From the NCBI RefSeq assembly GCF_013409065.1, contig NZ_JACBZP010000001.1:2862518-2926517 (forward strand): a stretch of DNA of 64,000 nt, read 5' to 3'. The position numbers were made by a program, and so were the translations under genes. Numbering within the stretch: the first letter of the stretch is position 1; the number at the start of each line of letters is the position of its first letter. This document shows positions 7,053-27,596 of the stretch, piece by piece. This DNA comes from Spelaeicoccus albus (GTDB lineage: Bacteria; Actinomycetota; Actinomycetes; Actinomycetales; Brevibacteriaceae). A model generated the notes under the pieces. That model was not told the origin of the DNA. It saw only the letters and a program-made list of their open reading frames with translations, and did no database searches.

Positions 7053-10000
7053 ATGTTCTCGAAGATTTTGGTCGCGAATAGGGGCGAGATCGCCGTTCGC
7101 GCGTTCCGTGCCGCTTATGAGGTCGGTGCGCGCACCGTGGCCGTGTTCCCGTATGAGGATCGCAATTCCGAACACCGGATGAAGGCCGACGAGGCTTACC
7201 AGATCGGATCGGAAGGGCATCCCGTTCGCGCCTACCTCAACGTCGACGAGATCCTGCGGGTCGCTGTCGAATGCGGCGCGGACGCCGTGTACCCGGGCTA
7301 CGGGTTCCTGTCCGAAAACCCCGACCTGGCGCGTGCGTGCGAAGCCGCTGGGATCACGTTCATCGGTCCGCCCGCGTCGGTGCTCGAACTGGCCGGCAAC
7401 AAGGTGCAAGCGCTGCGGGCGGCGAAGAACGCCGGAATTCCCGTGCTGGAGTCCACCACGCCGTCCGCCGATCTGGACGAGTTGCTCAGCGCCGCGGAAG
7501 GGATGGAATACCCGTTGTTCGCCAAGGCGGTCGCCGGCGGAGGCGGCCGCGGCATGCGGCGTGTCGCAGCACCGGAGGACCTGCGGGACGCGCTCGAATC
7601 GGCCATGCGCGAGGCCGATAGCGCCTTCGGCGATCCGACCATGTTCATCGAACAAGCGGTGCAGCGGCCGCGGCACATCGAGGTGCAGGTACTCGCCGAT
7701 TCACACAGCAATGCCATCCACTTGTACGAGCGCGACTGCTCGGTGCAGCGTCGGCATCAAAAGGTCGTCGAGATCGCTCCGGCGCCGAACCTGGACGACG
7801 ACGTCCGCGCGGCTTTGCACAGCGACGCCTTGAAATTCGCCGAAGCGCTTGGCTACCAGAACGCGGGCACCGTCGAGTTCCTGCTCGAGACCAAAGGCCC
7901 TCGGGCCGGCAAGCACGTGTTCATCGAGATGAATCCGCGCATCCAGGTCGAGCACACGGTGACCGAGGAAGTCACGAGCATCGACCTCGTGCAGTCGCAA
8001 ATGCGGATCGCGGCAGGGGAGTCCCTCGCGGACCTCGGGTTGACTCAGGACGACGTCCGGGTCGGCGGAGCAGCGCTGCAGTGCCGCATCACGACGGAAG
8101 ATCCGGCCAACGGGTTCCGCCCGGACACCGGCATGATCACCGCCTACCGGTCGGCCGGCGGCGCCGGCGTGCGCCTGGACGGCGGGACCGTGCATGCCGG
8201 TGCCGAGATCAGCGCCCATTTCGATTCGATGCTCGTGAAGCTCACGTGCCGCGGACGCACCTTTGACATTGCGGTCGGACGTGCCAAGCGCGCGCTCGCC
8301 GAGTTCCGCATTCGCGGCGTCAGCACGAACATCAGCTTCCTGCGTGCCGTGCTCGATGATCCGTCGTTCGCGGCCGGTGACTTGTCGACGGCGTTCATCG
8401 AAGAGCGACCCGAACTGCTGAAGGCCCGCGTGAGCGCCGACCGCGGCACGAAACTGCTGACGTGGCTGGCCGATGTGACGGTGAACCAGCCGAACGGCGC
8501 TGCGCCGGTGACACTCAATCCGGCCGACAAGCTCCCGGAGGGCGTCGACTTGTCCAAGCCGGCTCCGGACGGGGCCCGGCAGCGGCTGGCCGAGCTCGGT
8601 CCGCAGAAGTTCGCCGAGGACCTGCGCGCCCGCACGGCGCTGGCCGTCACCGAGACGACTTTTCGCGATGCCCATCAGTCGCTGTTGGCGACCCGCGTAC
8701 GCAGCCGAGATCTGCTGGCAGTGGCGCCGTACGTCTCCCGCCTGACTCCCGAACTGCTGAGCATCGAGTGCTGGGGCGGGGCCACCTACGACGTGGCATT
8801 GCGCTTCCTCGGCGAAGATCCGTGGGAACGGCTTGCCGGACTGCGTGAGAGCGCACCGAATATGGCGTTGCAAATGCTGCTGCGAGGCCGCAACACCGTT
8901 GGCTACACGCCGTACCCGACCGAGGTGACGGACGCGTTCGTCGCGGAAGCCGCATCGACGGGGATCGACATCTTCCGCATCTTCGACGCGCTGAACGACG
9001 TGTCCCAGATGCGTCCGGCCATCGACGCCGTCCGGGCCACCGATTCGGCGGTCGCCGAGGTCGCCCTGTGCTACACGGGCGACTTGGGAAACCCGGGCGA
9101 GAAACTGTACACGCTGGACTACTACCTGCGGCTTGCCGAAGAAATCGTGGACGCCGGCGCACACGTGTTGGCAATCAAGGACATGGCCGGTCTTTTACGC
9201 GCTCCTGCGGCATATACGCTGGTCAGCGCGCTGCGGGAACGCTTCGACCTGCCGGTGCATCTGCACACTCACGACACGGCCGGCGGTCAGCTTGCCACCT
9301 TGGCTGCGGCCGCCCGCGCCGGCGTCGATGCCGTTGACGCCGCGAGCGCCGCCATGTCGGGTACGACAAGCCAGCCGTCGCTGTCGTCGCTCGTGGCCGC
9401 ATTCGAGCACACCGACCGCGATACCGGCCTGTCACTGGACAAGGTCGGCGAGCTCGAACCGTATTGGGAAGCCGTCCGGCGGGTGTACGCCCCGTTCGAA
9501 TCCGGCCTTCCCGGACCGACCGGGCGCGTGTACAACCACGAAATTCCCGGCGGACAGTTGTCGAATCTTCGTCAACAGGCGGTGGCGCTGGGGCTCGGTG
9601 AGAAGTTCGAAGAGATCGAACGCATGTACGAGGCAGCCGATCGGATCCTCGGGCACTTGGTCAAGGTGACTCCGTCGTCCAAGGTCGTCGGCGATCTGGC
9701 CTTGCACCTTGTCGCGGTGGACGCCGATCCGAAGGAGTTCGAGGAGAACCCGGCATCGTTCGACATCCCGGATTCGGTGATCGGATTCTTGTCCGGTGAT
9801 CTCGGCGTGCCCCCGGGCGGGTGGCCCGAGCCGTTCCGCACCAAGGCGTTGGACGGTCGACGGGTCAAGCCCGCCGAAGCTGAGTTGTCCAGCGACGACA
9901 AGACGCTGCTGGCGGAACCCGGACCCGAACGTCGGACGGCGCTGAACCGGCTGCTGTTCCCCGGGCCCGCCAAGGAATTCGAACGGGTGCGCGACACCTT

Positions 10001-10454
10001 CGGCGATACGTCGGTGCTTGAGACCGTGGACTACCTGTACGGCTTGCGGGAAAACTCCGAGCACGTCATCCGGCTCGAAAAGGGCGTCGCTCTGCTTGCC
10101 GGGCTGGAAGCCGTCGGGGCGCCGGACGAACGCGGCATGCGCACCGTCATGTGCACCCTGAACGGGCAGCTGCGTCCATTGAGCGTGCGCGACGACTCCG
10201 TTGCCGTCGACGCCAAGACAGCCGAGCGGGCGAACCCTGCTGTGCCCGGCCATGTTGCGGCGCCGTTCGCGGGCGTCGTCACGCTTGTGGTCGGGGAGGG
10301 CGACACCGTCGAAGCGGGCGGAACCGTGGCAACCATCGAGGCCATGAAGATGGAGGCGTCAATCACGTCGGCGGTGGGCGGAACCGTCTCGCGTCTTGCC
10401 CTGAGCGACGTGTCGCAGGTCGAAGGCGGAGACCTGGTCGTGGTGGTCGAGTAG
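7053..10454 (+). CDS. pyc: Pyruvate carboxylase
   Basis: Biotin-dependent anaplerotic enzyme making oxaloacetate from pyruvate, bicarbonate and ATP; 1133 residues, full length. Domains in order: biotin carboxylase (FSKILVANRGEIAVRAFRAA at the start, ATP-grasp glycine loop AGGGGRGMRRV, EMNPRIQVEHTVTE); the carboxyltransferase TIM barrel beginning TETTFRDAHQSL with metal-ligand HLHTHDTAGGQ; and a biotinyl domain with EAMKMEAS, the biotin-accepting lysine being residue 1099. The ATG at 7053 follows CAGGAG at 7035-7040. def begins one base after its stop, so the pair is likely co-transcribed. Its biotin demand links it functionally to the bioYMN genes at 22794-26922. Confidence 0.97.
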   Translation: MFSKILVANRGEIAVRAFRAAYEVGARTVAVFPYEDRNSEHRMKADEAYQIGSEGHPVRAYLNVDEILRVAVECGADAVYPGYGFLSENPDLARACEAAGITFIGPPASVLELAGNKVQALRAAKNAGIPVLESTTPSADLDELLSAAEGMEYPLFAKAVAGGGGRGMRRVAAPEDLRDALESAMREADSAFGDPTMFIEQAVQRPRHIEVQVLADSHSNAIHLYERDCSVQRRHQKVVEIAPAPNLDDDVRAALHSDALKFAEALGYQNAGTVEFLLETKGPRAGKHVFIEMNPRIQVEHTVTEEVTSIDLVQSQMRIAAGESLADLGLTQDDVRVGGAALQCRITTEDPANGFRPDTGMITAYRSAGGAGVRLDGGTVHAGAEISAHFDSMLVKLTCRGRTFDIAVGRAKRALAEFRIRGVSTNISFLRAVLDDPSFAAGDLSTAFIEERPELLKARVSADRGTKLLTWLADVTVNQPNGAAPVTLNPADKLPEGVDLSKPAPDGARQRLAELGPQKFAEDLRARTALAVTETTFRDAHQSLLATRVRSRDLLAVAPYVSRLTPELLSIECWGGATYDVALRFLGEDPWERLAGLRESAPNMALQMLLRGRNTVGYTPYPTEVTDAFVAEAASTGIDIFRIFDALNDVSQMRPAIDAVRATDSAVAEVALCYTGDLGNPGEKLYTLDYYLRLAEEIVDAGAHVLAIKDMAGLLRAPAAYTLVSALRERFDLPVHLHTHDTAGGQLATLAAAARAGVDAVDAASAAMSGTTSQPSLSSLVAAFEHTDRDTGLSLDKVGELEPYWEAVRRVYAPFESGLPGPTGRVYNHEIPGGQLSNLRQQAVALGLGEKFEEIERMYEAADRILGHLVKVTPSSKVVGDLALHLVAVDADPKEFEENPASFDIPDSVIGFLSGDLGVPPGGWPEPFRTKALDGRRVKPAEAELSSDDKTLLAEPGPERRTALNRLLFPGPAKEFERVRDTFGDTSVLETVDYLYGLRENSEHVIRLEKGVALLAGLEAVGAPDERGMRTVMCTLNGQLRPLSVRDDSVAVDAKTAERANPAVPGHVAAPFAGVVTLVVGEGDTVEAGGTVATIEAMKMEASITSAVGGTVSRLALSDVSQVEGGDLVVVVE

Positions 10455-10982: not shown

Positions 10983-11837
10983 ATGCAACTCATCGGGGTA
11001 GTCGGCTGCGGTCTGATGGGATCGGGAATCGCCGAAGTGGCGGCCAAGGCCGGCCTCGACGTGATAGTGCGGGATATCAACGAGCAAGCTGTCGATGCGG
11101 GCCGGGCACGGATCGGCAAATCACTGAACCGGGCGGTCGAGCGCGGCAAGCTCACGGCGGAACGCCGGGACGCTGTGCTCAGCTCCCTCCGCTTCACGAC
11201 GGATATCAGCGAGTTGGCCGACCGGGATCTGGTCATCGAGGCTGCCAGCGAGAACGAAGAGATCAAGAAATCGGTGTTCGCCGACCTTGATGCGGTAGTG
11301 ACGAAGCCGGATGCCGTCCTGGCGTCGAACACGTCGTCCATGCCGATCGTGCGGTTCGCCAAGGCCACGAGCCGGCCCGAACGCGTCGTGGGCATGCACT
11401 TCTTCAATCCGGCGCCGGTTCAGCCGCTGGTGGAGATCGTTTCTTCCGTACTGACGGCCCCGGACGTCGTCGACGCCGTCCGAAGCCTGGCCGAGGACGT
11501 ACTGGGCAAGGTGACAATCAGCGCGCAGGACCGGCCCGGCTTCATCGTCAACGCGTTGTTGGTGCCGTATCTGCTGTCGGCGATCCGCATGTACGAATCG
11601 GGGGCGGCGAGCCTTGAGGACATCGACGCCGGAATGGTGAACGGCTGCGCACACCCGATGGGGCCGATGCGGTTGAACGACTTGGTCGGGTTGGACACCA
11701 CGCTGGCCATCGCCAAGTCGGTGCACGCCGAGACCGGCGATCCTGCCTACGCGCCGCCTGTGCTGCTCAGCCGGATGGTGGATGCCGGATTCCACGGCAA
11801 GAAGGCCGGACGAGGGTTCTATAACGATTACAGTTGA
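10983..11837 (+). CDS. 3-hydroxybutyryl-CoA dehydrogenase family protein
   Basis: NAD-dependent L-3-hydroxyacyl-CoA dehydrogenase of 284 residues, the single-domain FadB2/Hbd size. The N-terminal Rossmann loop is VVGCGLMGSGIAEVAAKAG, then ASNTSSMPI and GMHFFNPAPVQPLVEI, which carries the catalytic His, and a C-terminal helical domain starting near DRPGFIVNALL. It probably acts in short-chain acyl-CoA metabolism. It lies 35 bases after def and is followed after 3 bases by the NmrA-like gene. Confidence 0.92.
   Translation: MQLIGVVGCGLMGSGIAEVAAKAGLDVIVRDINEQAVDAGRARIGKSLNRAVERGKLTAERRDAVLSSLRFTTDISELADRDLVIEAASENEEIKKSVFADLDAVVTKPDAVLASNTSSMPIVRFAKATSRPERVVGMHFFNPAPVQPLVEIVSSVLTAPDVVDAVRSLAEDVLGKVTISAQDRPGFIVNALLVPYLLSAIRMYESGAASLEDIDAGMVNGCAHPMGPMRLNDLVGLDTTLAIAKSVHAETGDPAYAPPVLLSRMVDAGFHGKKAGRGFYNDYS
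11829..11834 (+). promoter_or_regulatory. -10 element of a leaderless NmrA-like mRNA
   Basis: TACAGT overlaps the last codons of the dehydrogenase gene and is followed by 6 bases and ATG at 11841. This suggests an internal promoter in addition to read-through. Confidence 0.4.
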
Positions 11838-11840
11838 ACT

Positions 11841-12623
11841 ATGTTCGCTGTTGCAGGAGGCACCGGACTCGTCGGTTCCAAGGTCGTGGCCCAGCTGGCG
11901 GCGGCCGGTGAGCCGGTGCGCGCACTCAGTCGCCGTGTTCCGGACGACGATTCGCCCCGCCGCGTCGAAGGCGCCGAATACGTCTCGACGGACTTGGTGA
12001 CGGGTGTCGGGCTGACCAAAGCGCTGACGGACGTCGAGATGATCATCGATACGACGGGGGACATGCGCCGCGGCAACAAGTCCGTGTTGCTGGCCGGCGC
12101 CGAGCGGCTCGTGCGGGTCGCGCGTGATCGCGGCGTCCGGCACGGAGTGGTCCTGTCGATCGCGGGCACCGACCAGTCGCGAATGGGGTACTACCGGACG
12201 AAGGCCGCGCAGGAACGGCTCTATCTGGATTCCGGTGCGGGTTTCCGGGTGCTGCGCGCCACCCAGTTCCATGAATTTCTGGACATGATTTTTCGTCCGG
12301 CCGCGCGCATCGGCGTGTTGCCGGTGTCGAAGAAGGCAAGTTTTCAGCCCATCGACACCGGCGACGTCGCACGCGAGTTGATCCGGTTTGTCGAGGAAGA
12401 CGACCCGGACATGCCGATCCGAACGGTCGGGGGCCCCGACGTGTTGCCGATGCGCGCCCTGGCCGAGGCGTGGAAGAAGTCCCGGCACAGTCGAGCATCG
12501 ATAGTCGGGGTGCCGGTTCCGGGCCCGTTCGGTGCGTTTCTGGCCGCGGGGTTGAACTTGATCCCCGAACGTGCCGTTGGCACGCGCACCTTCGACGACT
12601 GGTTGAGCGCGACCGCCGAATGA
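11841..12623 (+). CDS. NmrA-like NAD(P)-binding SDR protein
   Basis: Atypical SDR of 260 residues. It opens with the loop FAVAGGTGLVGSKVVAQLAAAG and VRALSRR, the NmrA/YwnB pattern, and lacks the YxxxK pair of a classical SDR, having DQSRMGYYRTKAAQE instead. The middle RATQFHEFLDMIF and the closing FDDWLS are common in the group annotated as NAD(P)H-binding or nucleoside-diphosphate-sugar epimerase proteins. Such proteins may be redox sensors or reductases; no substrate can be assigned. The start is supported by a -10-like hexamer. Confidence 0.83.
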   Translation: MFAVAGGTGLVGSKVVAQLAAAGEPVRALSRRVPDDDSPRRVEGAEYVSTDLVTGVGLTKALTDVEMIIDTTGDMRRGNKSVLLAGAERLVRVARDRGVRHGVVLSIAGTDQSRMGYYRTKAAQERLYLDSGAGFRVLRATQFHEFLDMIFRPAARIGVLPVSKKASFQPIDTGDVARELIRFVEEDDPDMPIRTVGGPDVLPMRALAEAWKKSRHSRASIVGVPVPGPFGAFLAAGLNLIPERAVGTRTFDDWLSATAE

Positions 12624-22793: not shown

Positions 22794-23405
22794 TCATTGC
22801 ACGCCGCGGGCGGTGAGCGCGTCACCGAGTTCGTCCGCATGCTTCAACGCCATCACGAGGAACGGGACGACAAAGGTGCGCAGATTACCGCGCGCACCCC
22901 GTGCCCGTTGGGCCTCGCGTACGTCGCGAGCGAGCCGTGCCAACACCGGAACAGTGCTCAGCGTCACCGTGAGCAAGAGAGCCACTCGTTGCGGGTCGAC
23001 GCGCAACAGTTCCAGCGGCTTCAGGCCGCGTTCGACGGCATCGAGCAGCGCCGTGACGCGCGTGGTGAGTACCAACAGCCCGGTGAGCACGATCGCTGCC
23101 GCGACCCGTGTGGTGTTGGCGAACGCCGATTCGGCCCCAAGGAAAATCAGCTGACCGGTGACGGTAATCAGGATGATCCAGCGGATGCCGAATACCTGAG
23201 AACCGAGTTCTCGCATCCCGAGCATGCCGTCGTGAAGCCCGGCCACGGCGTATGCCAGGACGCCCGCGACCGTCGCCGCTGCGGCTGCCCACCAGGTGGA
23301 CGGCAAAAGCGAGACGGCCAAGACGGCGGCCAGCACGACCAGCGCCTTCGGTCCCGCGGGGGTGCGATGCAACAGCCCGTCTCCGGGCCGATAGAGCGTC
23401 AGCAT
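22794..23405 (-). CDS. bioN: Biotin ECF transporter T component BioN (EcfT)
   Basis: Transmembrane energy-coupling protein of the BioMNY biotin transporter, 203 residues with four to five membrane helices. The cytosolic coupling motif of EcfT proteins is visible as REAQRARGARG, with a second Ala-Arg-Gly near the C-terminus (DALTARG). It is the last gene of the minus-strand operon bioY-ligase-thiolase-bioM-bioN and overlaps bioM by 7 bases. Confidence 0.9.
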   Translation of the reverse strand: MLTLYRPGDGLLHRTPAGPKALVVLAAVLAVSLLPSTWWAAAAATVAGVLAYAVAGLHDGMLGMRELGSQVFGIRWIILITVTGQLIFLGAESAFANTTRVAAAIVLTGLLVLTTRVTALLDAVERGLKPLELLRVDPQRVALLLTVTLSTVPVLARLARDVREAQRARGARGNLRTFVVPFLVMALKHADELGDALTARGVQ

Positions 23406-24091
23406 TCGAGCATCGCCTCGTATTCGGCCAGAATGCGGGATGTCTCGCCCACCGCCCGCACCCGACCGTCGCCGAACAAGACGGCCGAATCGCAGCGGGC
23501 GGCGAGAGCGAGATCGTGAGTCACGAGCACCAGACGATGCCCGGCGCTTTCGAACAGATGGTCGGCCACGCGGCGCGCGTTGCGTGCATCCAAATATGCG
23601 GTTGGTTCGTCAGCGATGACCAGGTCCGGCCGGCGGACGAAGGCGCCGCACAGTGCGAGGAGCTGCTTCTGACCGCCCGATAAATCGTGGGAGGGCCGCT
23701 CGGCCAGAGCGCCGAGCCCGAAGCGGTCGAGGGCGGCGTCGACTCTCTCCGTGATTTCGTCCCGGCCGAGCCGCTCCGCGCGCAGCGAGAACGCGACATC
23801 TTCGGCGACGGTCGGCATGACGATCTGGGCGTCCGGGTTGCTGAACACCAAGGCAATGCGTCGACGCAGCACGCGGGCATGCTTGGCCGGGTCGAATCTC
23901 AAGATACTCAGGTCGCCGCTGGTCCGGGCGATCAATCCGCCGAGTAGTCGGGCGAAGGTGGACTTGCCGGAGCCGTTCTCCCCGATGACCGCCACCGTGC
24001 GCGTGTCCAGATCGAGCGAGACGTCGTGTAATACGTCCACCTCCCCCAGACGCACCCCGACGGAGTCGAGGTGGATGGCCGCCGCGCTCAT
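23399..24091 (-). CDS. bioM: Biotin ECF transporter ATPase BioM
   Basis: ABC ATPase of the biotin ECF transporter, 230 residues. Motifs in order: Walker A GENGSGKST, the ECF-type Q-loop VFSNPDAQIVMPTV, signature LSGGQKQ, Walker B LVIADEPTAYLD, and switch His in LVTHD. The DAQIV element after the Q-loop is typical of the EcfA/CbiO/BioM group. ATG 24091 overlaps the thiolase stop as ATGA. An open frame further upstream is arginine-rich and is rejected. Confidence 0.93.
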   Translation of the reverse strand: MSAAAIHLDSVGVRLGEVDVLHDVSLDLDTRTVAVIGENGSGKSTFARLLGGLIARTSGDLSILRFDPAKHARVLRRRIALVFSNPDAQIVMPTVAEDVAFSLRAERLGRDEITERVDAALDRFGLGALAERPSHDLSGGQKQLLALCGAFVRRPDLVIADEPTAYLDARNARRVADHLFESAGHRLVLVTHDLALAARCDSAVLFGDGRVRAVGETSRILAEYEAMLEC

Positions 24092-25212
24092 CGGACGACC
24101 TCCAGCACGGCGGCGACGCCCATGCCGCCGCCGACCGATGCGGCGGCGACGCCGAGTGTCCCGGCCGGCGATCCGGTACGCACGAGGCGGCTGAAGAGCC
24201 GCACAAGGGCAATCGCTCCGCTGGCGCCCCAGGGATGCCCGATCGCCAGTGCGCCGCCGTCCGCGCAAATCCGCCGATCATCGTCGGCCAGACCAAGCCG
24301 GTCGAGCACGGCAAGACTCTGCGCCGCGAACGCCTCGACGATTTCGAACGCGCTCACATCCGCCGTCTCTACGCCGGCGCGTCGAAGAACGGTCCGTACG
24401 GCGTGGGCGGCCCCGATACCCGGAAAGGCAGGATCGCAGCCGATTGTGGCGCAAGCCCGTACCGCAAGTCCCGGCGTTGAGCCCGCTCGGGCGAGAACCA
24501 GCGCTGCGGCGCCGTCCCCGAACCGTGTGGCGGTTCCCGCCGTGAGAGTGCCGCCCGGGAAGATCGCCGGCAGCCGCAGCAGCAGCGGTTCGGCGCCACC
24601 GATCGCTTCATCACGGTCGAGCCCGGCCACCGGCACCAGCTCGTCGTTGAACCGACCTGCCTCGGCTGCCGCGCGTGCGCGCGCATGGCTGCGACCGGCG
24701 TGCCTGTCCTGGCGCGAGCGCGAAATGCGGTCACGCCCGGCAAGATCCTCGGCCGCTCGCACCATGTCCGGGTCCGCGAATCCGTCCGGGGCAAACGGCG
24801 CCCGGCTGTACGGGAGTCCGTTCATCGAACGCACCGGCGCGGTGGACGCACTCTCGACGCCGCCGGCTACGCGCACGCTGTCGGTATCAATGCGGGCCGC
24901 GGCGACCGCATCGATCACCGCGGCGAGCCCGCTACCGCACTGCCGGTCAACGGTGCCGCCCGGGACCTCCGCCCCCAACCCGGAGGCAAGTGCGGCAATG
25001 CGCCCGGGGTTTCCGCCCGGGCCCATGCAATTGCCCAGTTGGACGTCGGCCACGGCCGGCAGCGGACCGGTTGCAATCTCGGCGTCGGCCAAGGCGGCAC
25101 GGATAGCCGGGGCGGCGAGTTCTTCCACGCGCAAGCGGGCAAGCGCTCGGCCGCGTATGCCGATTGGTGTACGCCTGGCGGCGATGATGACCGGGTCGTG
25201 GTCAAACGGCAA
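24088..25212 (-). CDS. Thiolase-family protein of the biotin operon (YhfS-like position)
   Basis: 374-residue thiolase-fold protein. The nucleophilic Cys is present (C92 in DRQCGSGL) and so is the His of the GHP loop (H326 in ALAIGHPWGASG). Two other catalytic loops are altered: NEAF reads VEAF (residues 292-295), and the second catalytic Cys is serine (S359 in ASVGGGMG). Ordinary Claisen condensation or thiolysis may therefore be impaired or changed. In Bacillus subtilis the thiolase YhfS is encoded with the ligase YhfT and the BioY homolog YhfU under BirA control; this gene occupies the matching place. It overlaps the ligase by 11 bases and bioM by 4. A role in making or salvaging a pimeloyl-type biotin precursor is inference. 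Confidence 0.85.
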   Translation of the reverse strand: MPFDHDPVIIAARRTPIGIRGRALARLRVEELAAPAIRAALADAEIATGPLPAVADVQLGNCMGPGGNPGRIAALASGLGAEVPGGTVDRQCGSGLAAVIDAVAAARIDTDSVRVAGGVESASTAPVRSMNGLPYSRAPFAPDGFADPDMVRAAEDLAGRDRISRSRQDRHAGRSHARARAAAEAGRFNDELVPVAGLDRDEAIGGAEPLLLRLPAIFPGGTLTAGTATRFGDGAAALVLARAGSTPGLAVRACATIGCDPAFPGIGAAHAVRTVLRRAGVETADVSAFEIVEAFAAQSLAVLDRLGLADDDRRICADGGALAIGHPWGASGAIALVRLFSRLVRTGSPAGTLGVAAASVGGGMGVAAVLEVVR

Positions 25213-26293
25213 GCCGAGTCACCTCTCCGGCCAGTACGCAGCGGACGGCCTCGGCTCGAGCCGGCTTGCCCGACCCCGTGCGGGGAAGCACGCCCGTGAA
25301 CCATTGCCGCGGCCGGTGCGCGGGCGCCAGGTGGACGCCGACCGTGGCGCGGATGGCCTCGGACGCGTCTCCTTCCAGCTCAACGAAAGCCGCGACCAGC
25401 GAGCCCACGAGTCCGTTCGGCAACCCGAACACGATGGCATCGCGGACGCCGGGTATCGAGCGCAACACAGCCTCAACCTCGTCCGGCACGATCGTCGCCG
25501 AGGCGCTCAAAATGGCGTCGTCCGCCCGTCCGAGTAGGCGCATCCCGCCGTTGACGGGCTCCACGCGATCGCCGACCGTCGCCCATGCACCGTCCCGACG
25601 GAGTGGACCGGGCGCGCCGGCATACCCGGTTGCGACGAAGGGCGAACGCACCCACAACTCCCCCGCTCGCCTACTCAGTTCGACCCCCGGAAACGGCCTC
25701 AAACCGTTTCCGTCGTCAACGGCGACAAACGACAGCTCGGCCGCACCGTAATAGGCCCGCACGTCGATTCCGCTCGCCTCGGCCCGCCGGCGAAGCGCCG
25801 GATCGAGCCTGGACCCGCCGATCAACGCAGTGTGCAAGTGCGGGAGCGCACCCGAGTCGAGCACGGCACGCAGCGACTGTGGCGTGCCGTGCAAGCACGT
25901 CGCATCGGTTTGCCGGTCGGTACCGAGAATTGGGTGCGGGCCGCCTGCGAGCGCGTGCGCCATCGAGAACAACGTCAGCGAGGAGACGGGCGGAACCGGG
26001 AGTGCCACGGAGTCGGTGGGCCCGGCATTCAGTAGTGTGGCGACAGCGTCGAACGACTCGGCCCACGACCGTGCACTGCGCAGCACGACGCGCGGCGAAC
26101 CACTGCTCCCGGAGGTCAGGGTCGCCCAGGCGATGTCTTCGGTCACATCCGCGGAAACTGCTGCGGCGACCACGGCATCCCGTTGGGTACGGGACCAGCG
26201 GGGATCCGTGACAAGCGGAACGTCTCCGGACGCACGCACCACGCGGAGACGATCGAGCAGACCGTCCGGGGCGCCGCTCAACGGGACGATCAC
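25202..26293 (-). CDS. Compact AMP-forming acyl-CoA ligase of the biotin operon (YhfT-like position)
   Basis: ANL-superfamily adenylate-forming enzyme of 363 residues from a GTG at 26293. Motifs visible: the P-loop TSGSSGSPR (about 60-68), YYGAAELSFVA, the adenylate-binding GDRVE, hinge GRADDAIL, and the catalytic C-terminal lysine in PRTGSGKPAR. Only about 60 residues precede the P-loop instead of the usual 150 or more, so much of the first N-terminal subdomain is missing, somewhat as in short MenE-like ligases. The start overlaps the bioY stop as GTGA. It probably activates a carboxylic acid for the adjacent thiolase; a longer upstream frame is only the bioY shadow. Confidence 0.85.
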   Translation of the reverse strand: MIVPLSGAPDGLLDRLRVVRASGDVPLVTDPRWSRTQRDAVVAAAVSADVTEDIAWATLTSGSSGSPRVVLRSARSWAESFDAVATLLNAGPTDSVALPVPPVSSLTLFSMAHALAGGPHPILGTDRQTDATCLHGTPQSLRAVLDSGALPHLHTALIGGSRLDPALRRRAEASGIDVRAYYGAAELSFVAVDDGNGLRPFPGVELSRRAGELWVRSPFVATGYAGAPGPLRRDGAWATVGDRVEPVNGGMRLLGRADDAILSASATIVPDEVEAVLRSIPGVRDAIVFGLPNGLVGSLVAAFVELEGDASEAIRATVGVHLAPAHRPRQWFTGVLPRTGSGKPARAEAVRCVLAGEVTRLAV

Positions 26294-26922
26294 GGCACGA
26301 ATTCCGGGTCGTGATCGTCGACCGGCGCAGCAGCCCACGTGCGACGGAAGGCACGCGGATATGCGCGGACTAGGGTCATCACGACAGCGGCGGTGAGAAC
26401 GCATTTGATGAGGTCGCCGGGCACGAACACCAGACTGGTCAGCGCGGTCTCCGCAAGCGGAAGGCGTGTGAGCGCGCTTTGCACCGGGATGCCTACGGCG
26501 TAAATTACCGCAATCCCGCCGGTCACCACGCCAAGGAGAGTTCGCCAGAGCACCGGGCGCCCGCCGGCGTGTACGATCAGGCCAATCACGAAGGCCCCGG
26601 CGATCCAGCCGATGGCGAAGCCGGCGGACGGCCCGAGGAACACGCCGATCCCCCCACGGCCGCCGGCCATCAACGGCAAGCCGATGGCGACCAACGCCAG
26701 GAACACCGACATTGACAGCGCCCCCAGCCATGGTCCGAGGATTGCCCCGGCCAACATCACACCAAGCGTCTGCGCGGTGATCGGCACGGCGCCCAGGACG
26801 GTAAATCCCCCGGGCAGCCCCAGGACCGCGACAATTGCGGCGCACACGGATACTCGGGCCAGATCGGTGGCATCGCACCGCCGGAAACGCGTTCGAGCGG
26901 CCGGCGTGGCAGGTTTTGTCAT
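26290..26922 (-). CDS. bioY: Biotin transporter substrate-binding component BioY
   Basis: S component of the ECF biotin transporter, 210 residues and six hydrophobic segments. Family marks are GAVPITAQTLGVMLAGAILG, LMAGGRGGIGVFLGPSAGF and FVPGDLIKCVLTA. ATG 26922 follows AAAGGA. It is the first gene of a five-gene operon in which every junction overlaps. Two BioQ-type palindromes lie 40-67 bases upstream of its start, so repression at ample biotin is expected. Confidence 0.95.
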   Translation of the reverse strand: MTKPATPAARTRFRRCDATDLARVSVCAAIVAVLGLPGGFTVLGAVPITAQTLGVMLAGAILGPWLGALSMSVFLALVAIGLPLMAGGRGGIGVFLGPSAGFAIGWIAGAFVIGLIVHAGGRPVLWRTLLGVVTGGIAVIYAVGIPVQSALTRLPLAETALTSLVFVPGDLIKCVLTAAVVMTLVRAYPRAFRRTWAAAPVDDHDPEFVP

Positions 26923-26961: not shown

Positions 26962-26989
26962 TGAACAGTGTTCACTAGAACGCTGTTCA
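26962..26989. promoter_or_regulatory. Tandem BioQ-type operators
   Basis: Two 13-base palindromes, TGAACAGTGTTCA (26962-26974) and AGAACGCTGTTCA (26977-26989), with centres 15 bases apart, in the 80-base gap between bioY and bioQ. They fit the TGAAC-N3-GTT(C/A)(A/C) pattern described for BioQ in corynebacteria and mycobacteria. The second operator touches the bioQ -10 hexamer, so autorepression is likely. Confidence 0.85.
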
Positions 26990-27002: not shown

Positions 27003-27596
27003 ATGACACGAACCGGAAGCGGCCGCGGGCATACGCGCGACGACGTCGTACGCACGGCGCTGCACATTCTCGACGAGTACGGCCTGCCGGACCTCACCAT
27101 GCGCCGTCTGGCGAACGCGCTCGGCGTGCAGCCGAGCGCCCTGTACTGGCACTTCGCCAATAAACAAAATCTGTTGGCCGAACTCGCCGATCGGATAGTG
27201 GCACGAGCCGCGGCCGATGATCCCGATTCGTCGTGGACAACGAGTGTTCGCGCCGAAGCCGTCGCGCTGCGCGATGCGCTACTTGCCTATCGCGACGGCG
27301 CCGAAGTGGTGGCCGGCACGCTTGCGCTCGGCCTGGGCTCTACGATGGCCCGAGATCGGTTCGCGGCCGCTGTCGCCGCCGGAGGTTTCGATCGGGAAAC
27401 GGCGAGGCGAGCCGCGATGGCCTTGTTGCACTTCGTACTCGGGCACGTCTCGTACGAACAGCAGCGGATGCAGTACGACAGCGTCGGCGTGCTCGCCGAC
27501 GCACTGCCCGTCGGCGGCGCGGATCCGACGGCCGAGTTCACTTTCGGCATCGACTTGATAGTGGCCGGGCTGGACAGCAGTCGCGCCCGACGATAA
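27003..27596 (+). CDS. bioQ: TetR-family biotin regulator BioQ
   Basis: TetR/AcrR repressor of 197 residues. The N-terminal helix-turn-helix is LTMRRLANALGVQPSALYWH, followed by F-NKQNLLAELAD; the C-terminal ligand domain is all-helical. It is divergent from the bioY operon, and the shared 80-base region carries two TGAAC-type palindromes, the combination described for BioQ of corynebacteria and mycobacteria. BirA or a biotinylated signal is the likely input. The name rests on context plus operator, not on alignment. Confidence 0.85.
   Translation: MTRTGSGRGHTRDDVVRTALHILDEYGLPDLTMRRLANALGVQPSALYWHFANKQNLLAELADRIVARAAADDPDSSWTTSVRAEAVALRDALLAYRDGAEVVAGTLALGLGSTMARDRFAAAVAAGGFDRETARRAAMALLHFVLGHVSYEQQRMQYDSVGVLADALPVGGADPTAEFTFGIDLIVAGLDSSRARR

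Follow-up and report, generated by a model that had tools for sequence, protein, structure and literature searches.

The five-gene operon described here lies in a 64,000-nucleotide stretch of the 4.03-Mb genome of Spelaeicoccus albus (hereafter the window, whose coordinates are used unless a contig or locus is named) and joins a biotin importer to a ligase and a thiolase-like protein. On the minus strand, it comprises bioY (26290..26922), encoding the substrate-binding (S) component of an energy-coupling factor (ECF) biotin transporter (Pfam BioY, 118 bits); a gene for a short AMP-forming acyl-coenzyme A (CoA) ligase of 363 aa (LIG; 25202..26293; Pfam AMP-binding and AMP-binding_C), whose GTG start overlaps the bioY stop by 4 bases; a gene for a thiolase-fold protein (THL; 24088..25212; TTG start; Pfam Thiolase_N and Thiolase_C); bioM, for the ECF ATPase or A component (23399..24091; Pfam ABC_tran; best NCBIfam relative ECF_ATPase_1); and bioN, for the ECF transmembrane (T) component (22794..23405; Pfam CbiQ). 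A check of the open reading frames bore out this minus-strand run, with successive overlaps of 4, 11, 4, and 7 bases, as it had been described in a sequence-only reading of the window. The sole PDB match of the window BioY is Lactococcus lactis BioY (4dve, E 1e-25), and GGRGG and PGDxxK motifs are common to nearly all ligase-linked BioYs. With a BioY-family S component and dedicated A and T components, the operon encodes the parts of a BioYMN transporter and is predicted to import biotin. A TetR-family, BioQ-like regulator gene (27003..27596, plus strand; Pfam TetR_N) is divergent from bioY.

The bioY-ligase-thiolase-bioMN operon is widely conserved as a unit. When the genome_contigs collection (84,980 species, each represented by one genome) was scanned, the matches were confined to Actinomycetota and comprised more than 500 THL relatives; in the best 80 loci, which were examined, LIG adjoins THL in every case and bioY is found in the same locus in 73. 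The sequence-only reading had staked its claim on the co-occurrence of the ligase and thiolase with bioYMN in other genomes, and the claim survived this comparison. The gene order repeats in dozens of genera, so the arrangement is not a product of chance. In a class sample of 247 genomes, where THL was called from 430 bits upward against the family profile (next thiolases, at most 358), it is present in 36; in at least 32 of these it lies within ∼3 kb of bioY, in one it is 34 kb away, and in three it was unplaced. Seven of the best 80 loci carry the pair without bioYMN, namely Mycetocola (3), Subtercola, Microbacterium, Nesterenkonia, and Clavibacter. The pair is also borne with bioY on plasmids of Azospirillum, Paracoccus, Marivivens, and Thioclava, and a homology search added the pair plus bioY in Shinella, Streptantibioticus, and another Paracoccus; in Rhizobium, the pair stands behind a thioesterase gene without bioY. 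No Bacillota copies were seen among the plasmid matches listed. The THLs of all these loci, actinobacterial and plasmid-borne, group in a single clade (support 100/100) that excludes the ordinary thiolases in the tree.

The sequence-only reading had placed the operon under a BioQ-type switch, and a matching operator was indeed found between the TetR gene and bioY. It consists of TGAACAGTGTTCA (26962..26974), a perfect copy of the published BioQ site TGAAC-N3-GTTCA (PMC3398298), and AGAACGCTGTTCA (26977..26989), a second box with 1 mismatch that lies 15 bases from the first; relatives show the same 15-base tandem spacing. The host genome contains only two perfect copies. The other one (C1:3610450), flanked by an IclR-like gene and a gene for an ABC substrate-binding protein, is probably fortuitous, and a one-mismatch BioQ-like site elsewhere in the window, TGAACTATGTTCG (11835-11847, plus strand), probably likewise arose by chance. 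Across the 80 loci, 59 of which have at least one perfect box, all 103 perfect boxes fall in the operon promoter region, with none elsewhere in 1.0 Mb. Among the seven pairs that lack bioYMN, six have a perfect box ∼50-200 bases upstream of LIG; such boxes on pairs not beside the transporter genes predict that the LIG-THL pair itself is a member of the biotin regulon. The best PDB matches of the divergent regulator are 5xs9, 5yek, and 5yej (E 2e-39), which are named only as TetR family in the PDB and which we take to be Mycobacterium smegmatis BioQ. A search near the alphaproteobacterial operons for the BioR box (TTATMKATAA, up to 1 mismatch) found none, and BioR regulation of those copies was rejected.

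We compared the THL active site in 103 family members with six ordinary thiolase rows, two of them the same protein, using Zoogloea ramigera numbering. The nucleophilic Cys89 and the His348 of the GHP motif are kept in all 103 members, which thus resemble the biosynthetic thiolase of the Z. ramigera type in both residues. They differ from it in the second catalytic Cys, Cys378, which is present in all six ordinary rows and in none of the family members, where Ser, Ala, or Gly takes its place, and, for most members, in the oxyanion residue Asn316 of the NEAF motif, which only 9 members retain, the other 94 having Val, Thr, or Met. The window THL follows this pattern, with SVGGG instead of CxGGG and VEAFA, in which Val replaces the oxyanion Asn, while Cys92 and His326 are kept. 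In the making of C-C bonds, Cys378 serves as the base, and Asn316 and His348 form the oxyanion hole that holds the enolate (PMC3406046). The AlphaFold model of THL (pLDDT 92) shows the thiolase fold with confidence, and its top structural matches are the Z. ramigera thiolase. Since the nucleophile and the His are kept and Cys378 is lost, THL is expected to form an acyl-enzyme and to lack ordinary thiolase activity. The label thiolase used in the sequence-only reading therefore stands as regards the fold, the nucleophilic Cys, and the His, whereas the activity that it implies is doubtful, with the Claisen base missing throughout the family. The host also encodes ordinary thiolases whose active site is complete.

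LIG keeps the ANL motifs TSGSSG, YYGAAE, GD, GR, and GSGK (P-loop, A5, A7, A8, and the catalytic A10 Lys), and the invariant or near-invariant positions of its family include S61 G62, YYGAxE at 181-186, GD at 241-242, GR at 255-256, and GK at 342-343. Its AlphaFold model (pLDDT 90) has MenE and McbA as nearest folds, with a short N-terminal part. With these motifs kept, LIG likely activates its acid to a CoA thioester. The best NCBIfam relative is the short, 362-aa form of the o-succinylbenzoate-CoA ligase MenE, which LIG resembles in length and in its AMP-ligase motifs; its score of 101 bits lies below the cut-off of 345, so LIG is not MenE itself. As for the transporter, Arg occupies the position of L. 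lactis BioY Asn79 in all 94 ligase-linked BioYs, and a special substrate was considered on this account; no clear conclusion followed, since 16 of 46 plain BioYs share the Arg.

The genomic setting of the pair argues against a role in de novo biotin synthesis in the host. The sequence-only reading had reported that bioF, bioA, bioD, and bioB are missing from the window, which holds, and for three of them the absence extends to the whole host genome, where neither bioA nor bioB was found above the curated cut-offs and bioD had no match; for bioF, there is only a sub-cut-off bioF/KBL-like gene. The host thus lacks the bioA, bioB, and bioD set of de novo synthesis, and a pimelate-type precursor could not become biotin in it. 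Both bioA and bioB are likewise missing in 29 of the 36 THL carriers of the class sample, the other seven having both, and bioB is present in 7/36 carriers versus 111/211 other genomes (Fisher p 2e-4, a value that ignores shared ancestry). The earlier suggestion that the ligase and thiolase turn an acid into a biotin precursor is contradicted for the host by these absences. A biotin protein ligase is present in the host, which ruled out LIG-THL as its substitute.

The host carries a second bioY with bioM and bioN, overlooked in the sequence-only reading, at C1:2959900-2962000 (L007:6908-8969, plus strand). This set lies 71 kb away, has no ligase or thiolase gene, and has no BioQ box (up to 1 mismatch) near it; the two BioYs are 34% identical. 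In relatives, other genes accompany the pair. An MDR reductase related to the MECR/ETR 2-enoyl thioester reductases, among them human MECR (first match 3gms, a putative NADPH:quinone reductase) lies beside it at L042:10043-11014 (plus strand), L163:2999-3967 (minus), and L172:1017-2156 (minus); in L042 it follows THL, in Streptantibioticus (L172) it adjoins bioD in the vicinity of bioMNY-LIG-THL, and in Rhizobium it is next to the thioesterase-LIG-THL genes. In Rhizobium and Shinella, the neighborhood of the pair includes a thioesterase-like gene.

Several further neighbors are recorded as observations in their own right. A CHY zinc-finger gene (∼105-aa protein) occurs in 34 family loci (L069:8062-8718, L075:7116-7430, and 32 others), where it is found after bioN, after THL (in three pairs without bioYMN), or divergent from bioY; many loci of Microbacteriaceae, Promicromonospora, and Paeniglutamicibacter have it as the final operon gene. 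This family is rare, with members in 5 of the 247 genomes, including the host, whose copy (C1:2773547) is unlinked to the operon. A nitroreductase-family gene adjoins the pair and bioY on three Rhodobacterales plasmids (L165:8048-8719, L166:8051-8722, and L167:8009-8686, all minus strand), and in two genomes of family f10, G102 and G027, bioN is followed by another AMP-ligase gene with the same orientation (L057:2936-4537 and L059:1538-3160, both minus strand). Within the window, a pyruvate carboxylase, which is a biotin-dependent enzyme, is encoded ∼12 kb from the operon (7056-10454, plus strand; NCBIfam PRK12999, 1685 bits).

The trio of bioY, ligase, and thiolase is already known from Bacillota, where yhfU(bioY)-yhfT-yhfS of Bacillus and Staphylococcus likewise combines BioY, a ligase, and a thiolase under a biotin repressor. 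There the repressor is BirA, whereas the present operon is predicted to be under a BioQ-like regulator and has a complete ECF transporter inside. In Staphylococcus aureus, yhfS-yhfT forms its own BirA-regulated (biotin-repressed) operon, annotated as a fatty-acid CoA ligase and an acetyltransferase (PMC6391492), and in standing alone it resembles the present pairs that do not adjoin bioYMN. The window proteins do not reach the curated cut-offs, with THL scoring 244.6 against 498 for PRK06690 and LIG scoring 98.1 against 518 for PRK07638, which we take to be the YhfT family. The PRK06690 score was rejected as proof of YhfS orthology because it does not discriminate, the window THL and an ordinary thiolase of the host scoring 244.5 and 242.5, respectively. 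Long LIG members, however, score best against PRK07638 in NCBIfam (323 versus 250 bits for the next best), and the Azospirillum LIG attains 323 of the required 518. On this ground, a common origin of the trio with yhfU-yhfT-yhfS is likely, and the statement in the sequence-only reading that the Bacillus operon is unrelated is doubtful. Corynebacterium glutamicum, a biotin auxotroph, likewise has a dedicated bioY, bioM, and bioN importer, which as named has no ligase or thiolase in its operon; BioQ boxes have been predicted upstream of Corynebacterium bio genes (PMC3398298). As far as the literature found shows, the new elements are (i) the wide spread of the trio in Actinomycetota under BioQ boxes, (ii) the pair with bioY on alphaproteobacterial plasmids, (iii) the BioQ-boxed pairs without adjacent bioYMN, (iv) the loss of Cys378 in every compared member, (v) the enrichment among predicted auxotrophs, and (vi) the additional neighbor genes. 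On the function of the ligase/thiolase pair, our literature search found nothing.

From the gene order, conservation, operator sites, absence of bioA, bioB, and bioD, and active-site loss computed here, we are fairly confident that the operon is a biotin-regulated module that does not serve de novo precursor supply in the host. Our preferred, narrower reading, for which we see about even chances, is a biotin-starvation operon for the import and processing of a biotin-type acid. Under biotin shortage, we infer, the BioQ-like repressor would leave its boxes, and BioY-BioM-BioN would import biotin or a biotin vitamer. LIG would join the carboxyl group of the imported acid to CoA, using ATP, and THL may take the acyl group onto Cys92, aided by His326. 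Because THL has no base for ordinary thiolase (Claisen) chemistry, the acyl group might then either (i) be handed on to a non-carbon acceptor or (ii) enter a condensation with a decarboxylating partner, for example malonyl-CoA. Among specific roles for the pair, the likeliest would be to rebuild shortened norbiotin side chains (bisnor- and tetranorbiotin) into usable biotin, with chain extension needing an unusual, perhaps decarboxylating, condensation since the Claisen base is missing. Later reductions of the rebuilt chain might fall to general or nearby enzymes, and in some relatives the enoyl reductase and the thioesterase may help; the MECR-related reductase and thioesterase neighbors are clues to such chain building. 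The salvage of biotin side-chain material raised in the sequence-only reading is thus retained, in the form of norbiotin re-extension, as our leading specific guess for the pair, with its chemistry conjectural and the guess itself tentative. That an undescribed side-chain repair pathway exists, in which a THL without a Claisen base would add two carbons to norbiotin-CoA esters, seems to us doubtful.

Several points weigh against the preferred reading. The loss of Cys378, and of Asn316 in most members, makes any C-C bond chemistry uncertain and weakens the case for chain extension; the reductase and thioesterase genes occur in only a few loci and do not adjoin the operon in the window; and other sources would have to supply the ketoreductase and dehydratase steps. 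Further, acceptance of norbiotins by BioY is putative, the substrate and activity ascribed to the pair are deductions, and the seven carriers with bioA and bioB, together with the nearby bioD in L172, would allow a synthesis role in such genomes. These same genomes, with the enoyl-reductase-like gene that accompanies bioD near bioMNY-LIG-THL in L172, lend some support to a supply of pimeloyl-CoA, in which LIG would activate glutarate or another short diacid and THL would add two carbons towards pimeloyl-CoA for bioF; BioZ carries out an analogous condensation. Pimeloyl-CoA could not, however, become biotin in the host or in the 29 of 36 carriers without bioA and bioB, and with no bioD either, this explanation is already contradicted for the host and is highly improbable overall.

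When biotin and, hence, acetyl-CoA carboxylase are short, the pair may spare biotin by activating fatty acids or malonate, so that lipids could be made without carboxylase-made malonyl-CoA. Decarboxylating condensing enzymes (KAS) need no Cys378 base, and the BioQ boxes on pairs away from bioYMN also accord with this proposal, as does the BirA-regulated S. aureus yhfS-yhfT with its fatty-acid ligase and acetyltransferase annotation (PMC6391492). We nevertheless consider it unlikely, as the close operonic linkage to bioY, seen in 73 of 80 loci, points to the imported molecule and the host already has ordinary, full-active-site thiolases for fat metabolism. Alternatively, LIG might make biotinyl-CoA or an anti-vitamin-CoA and THL, as an acyltransferase without Claisen activity, might move the group to an acceptor, either keeping biotin in the cell or inactivating biotin antimetabolites imported by BioY. 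Such trapping or detoxification would suit the retention of the nucleophile and His with loss of the base in 103/103 members, a pattern that fits pure acyl transfer, as well as the coupling of the pair to bioY, but there is no constant acceptor gene (the zinc-finger gene is in only 34 family loci), and the reductase and thioesterase neighbors are left unexplained; we judge it unlikely. Finally, plain bioYMN operons without the pair, including the second one in the host, would allow that the pair is a passenger that a transporter operon happened to capture, with no function linked to biotin. The conserved pairing in Actinomycetota and Alphaproteobacteria, the BioQ boxes on copies not adjoining bioYMN, and the single, fully supported clade render this barely credible.

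A key residue is missing from all members compared, which suggests that hundreds of database acetyl-CoA acetyltransferases are misnamed. The job of yhfT-yhfS beside biotin import appears unsettled, the literature found calling them only a putative fatty-acid ligase and acetyltransferase. Precursor synthesis drops out as a general explanation now that a pair of this kind is known from auxotrophs, where it has BioQ boxes, and from plasmids of Alphaproteobacteria, where it accompanies bioY. The presence of the pair in biotin auxotrophs makes the question of function testable in simple organisms, and side-chain repair, if true, would let these auxotrophs recycle biotin breakdown products.

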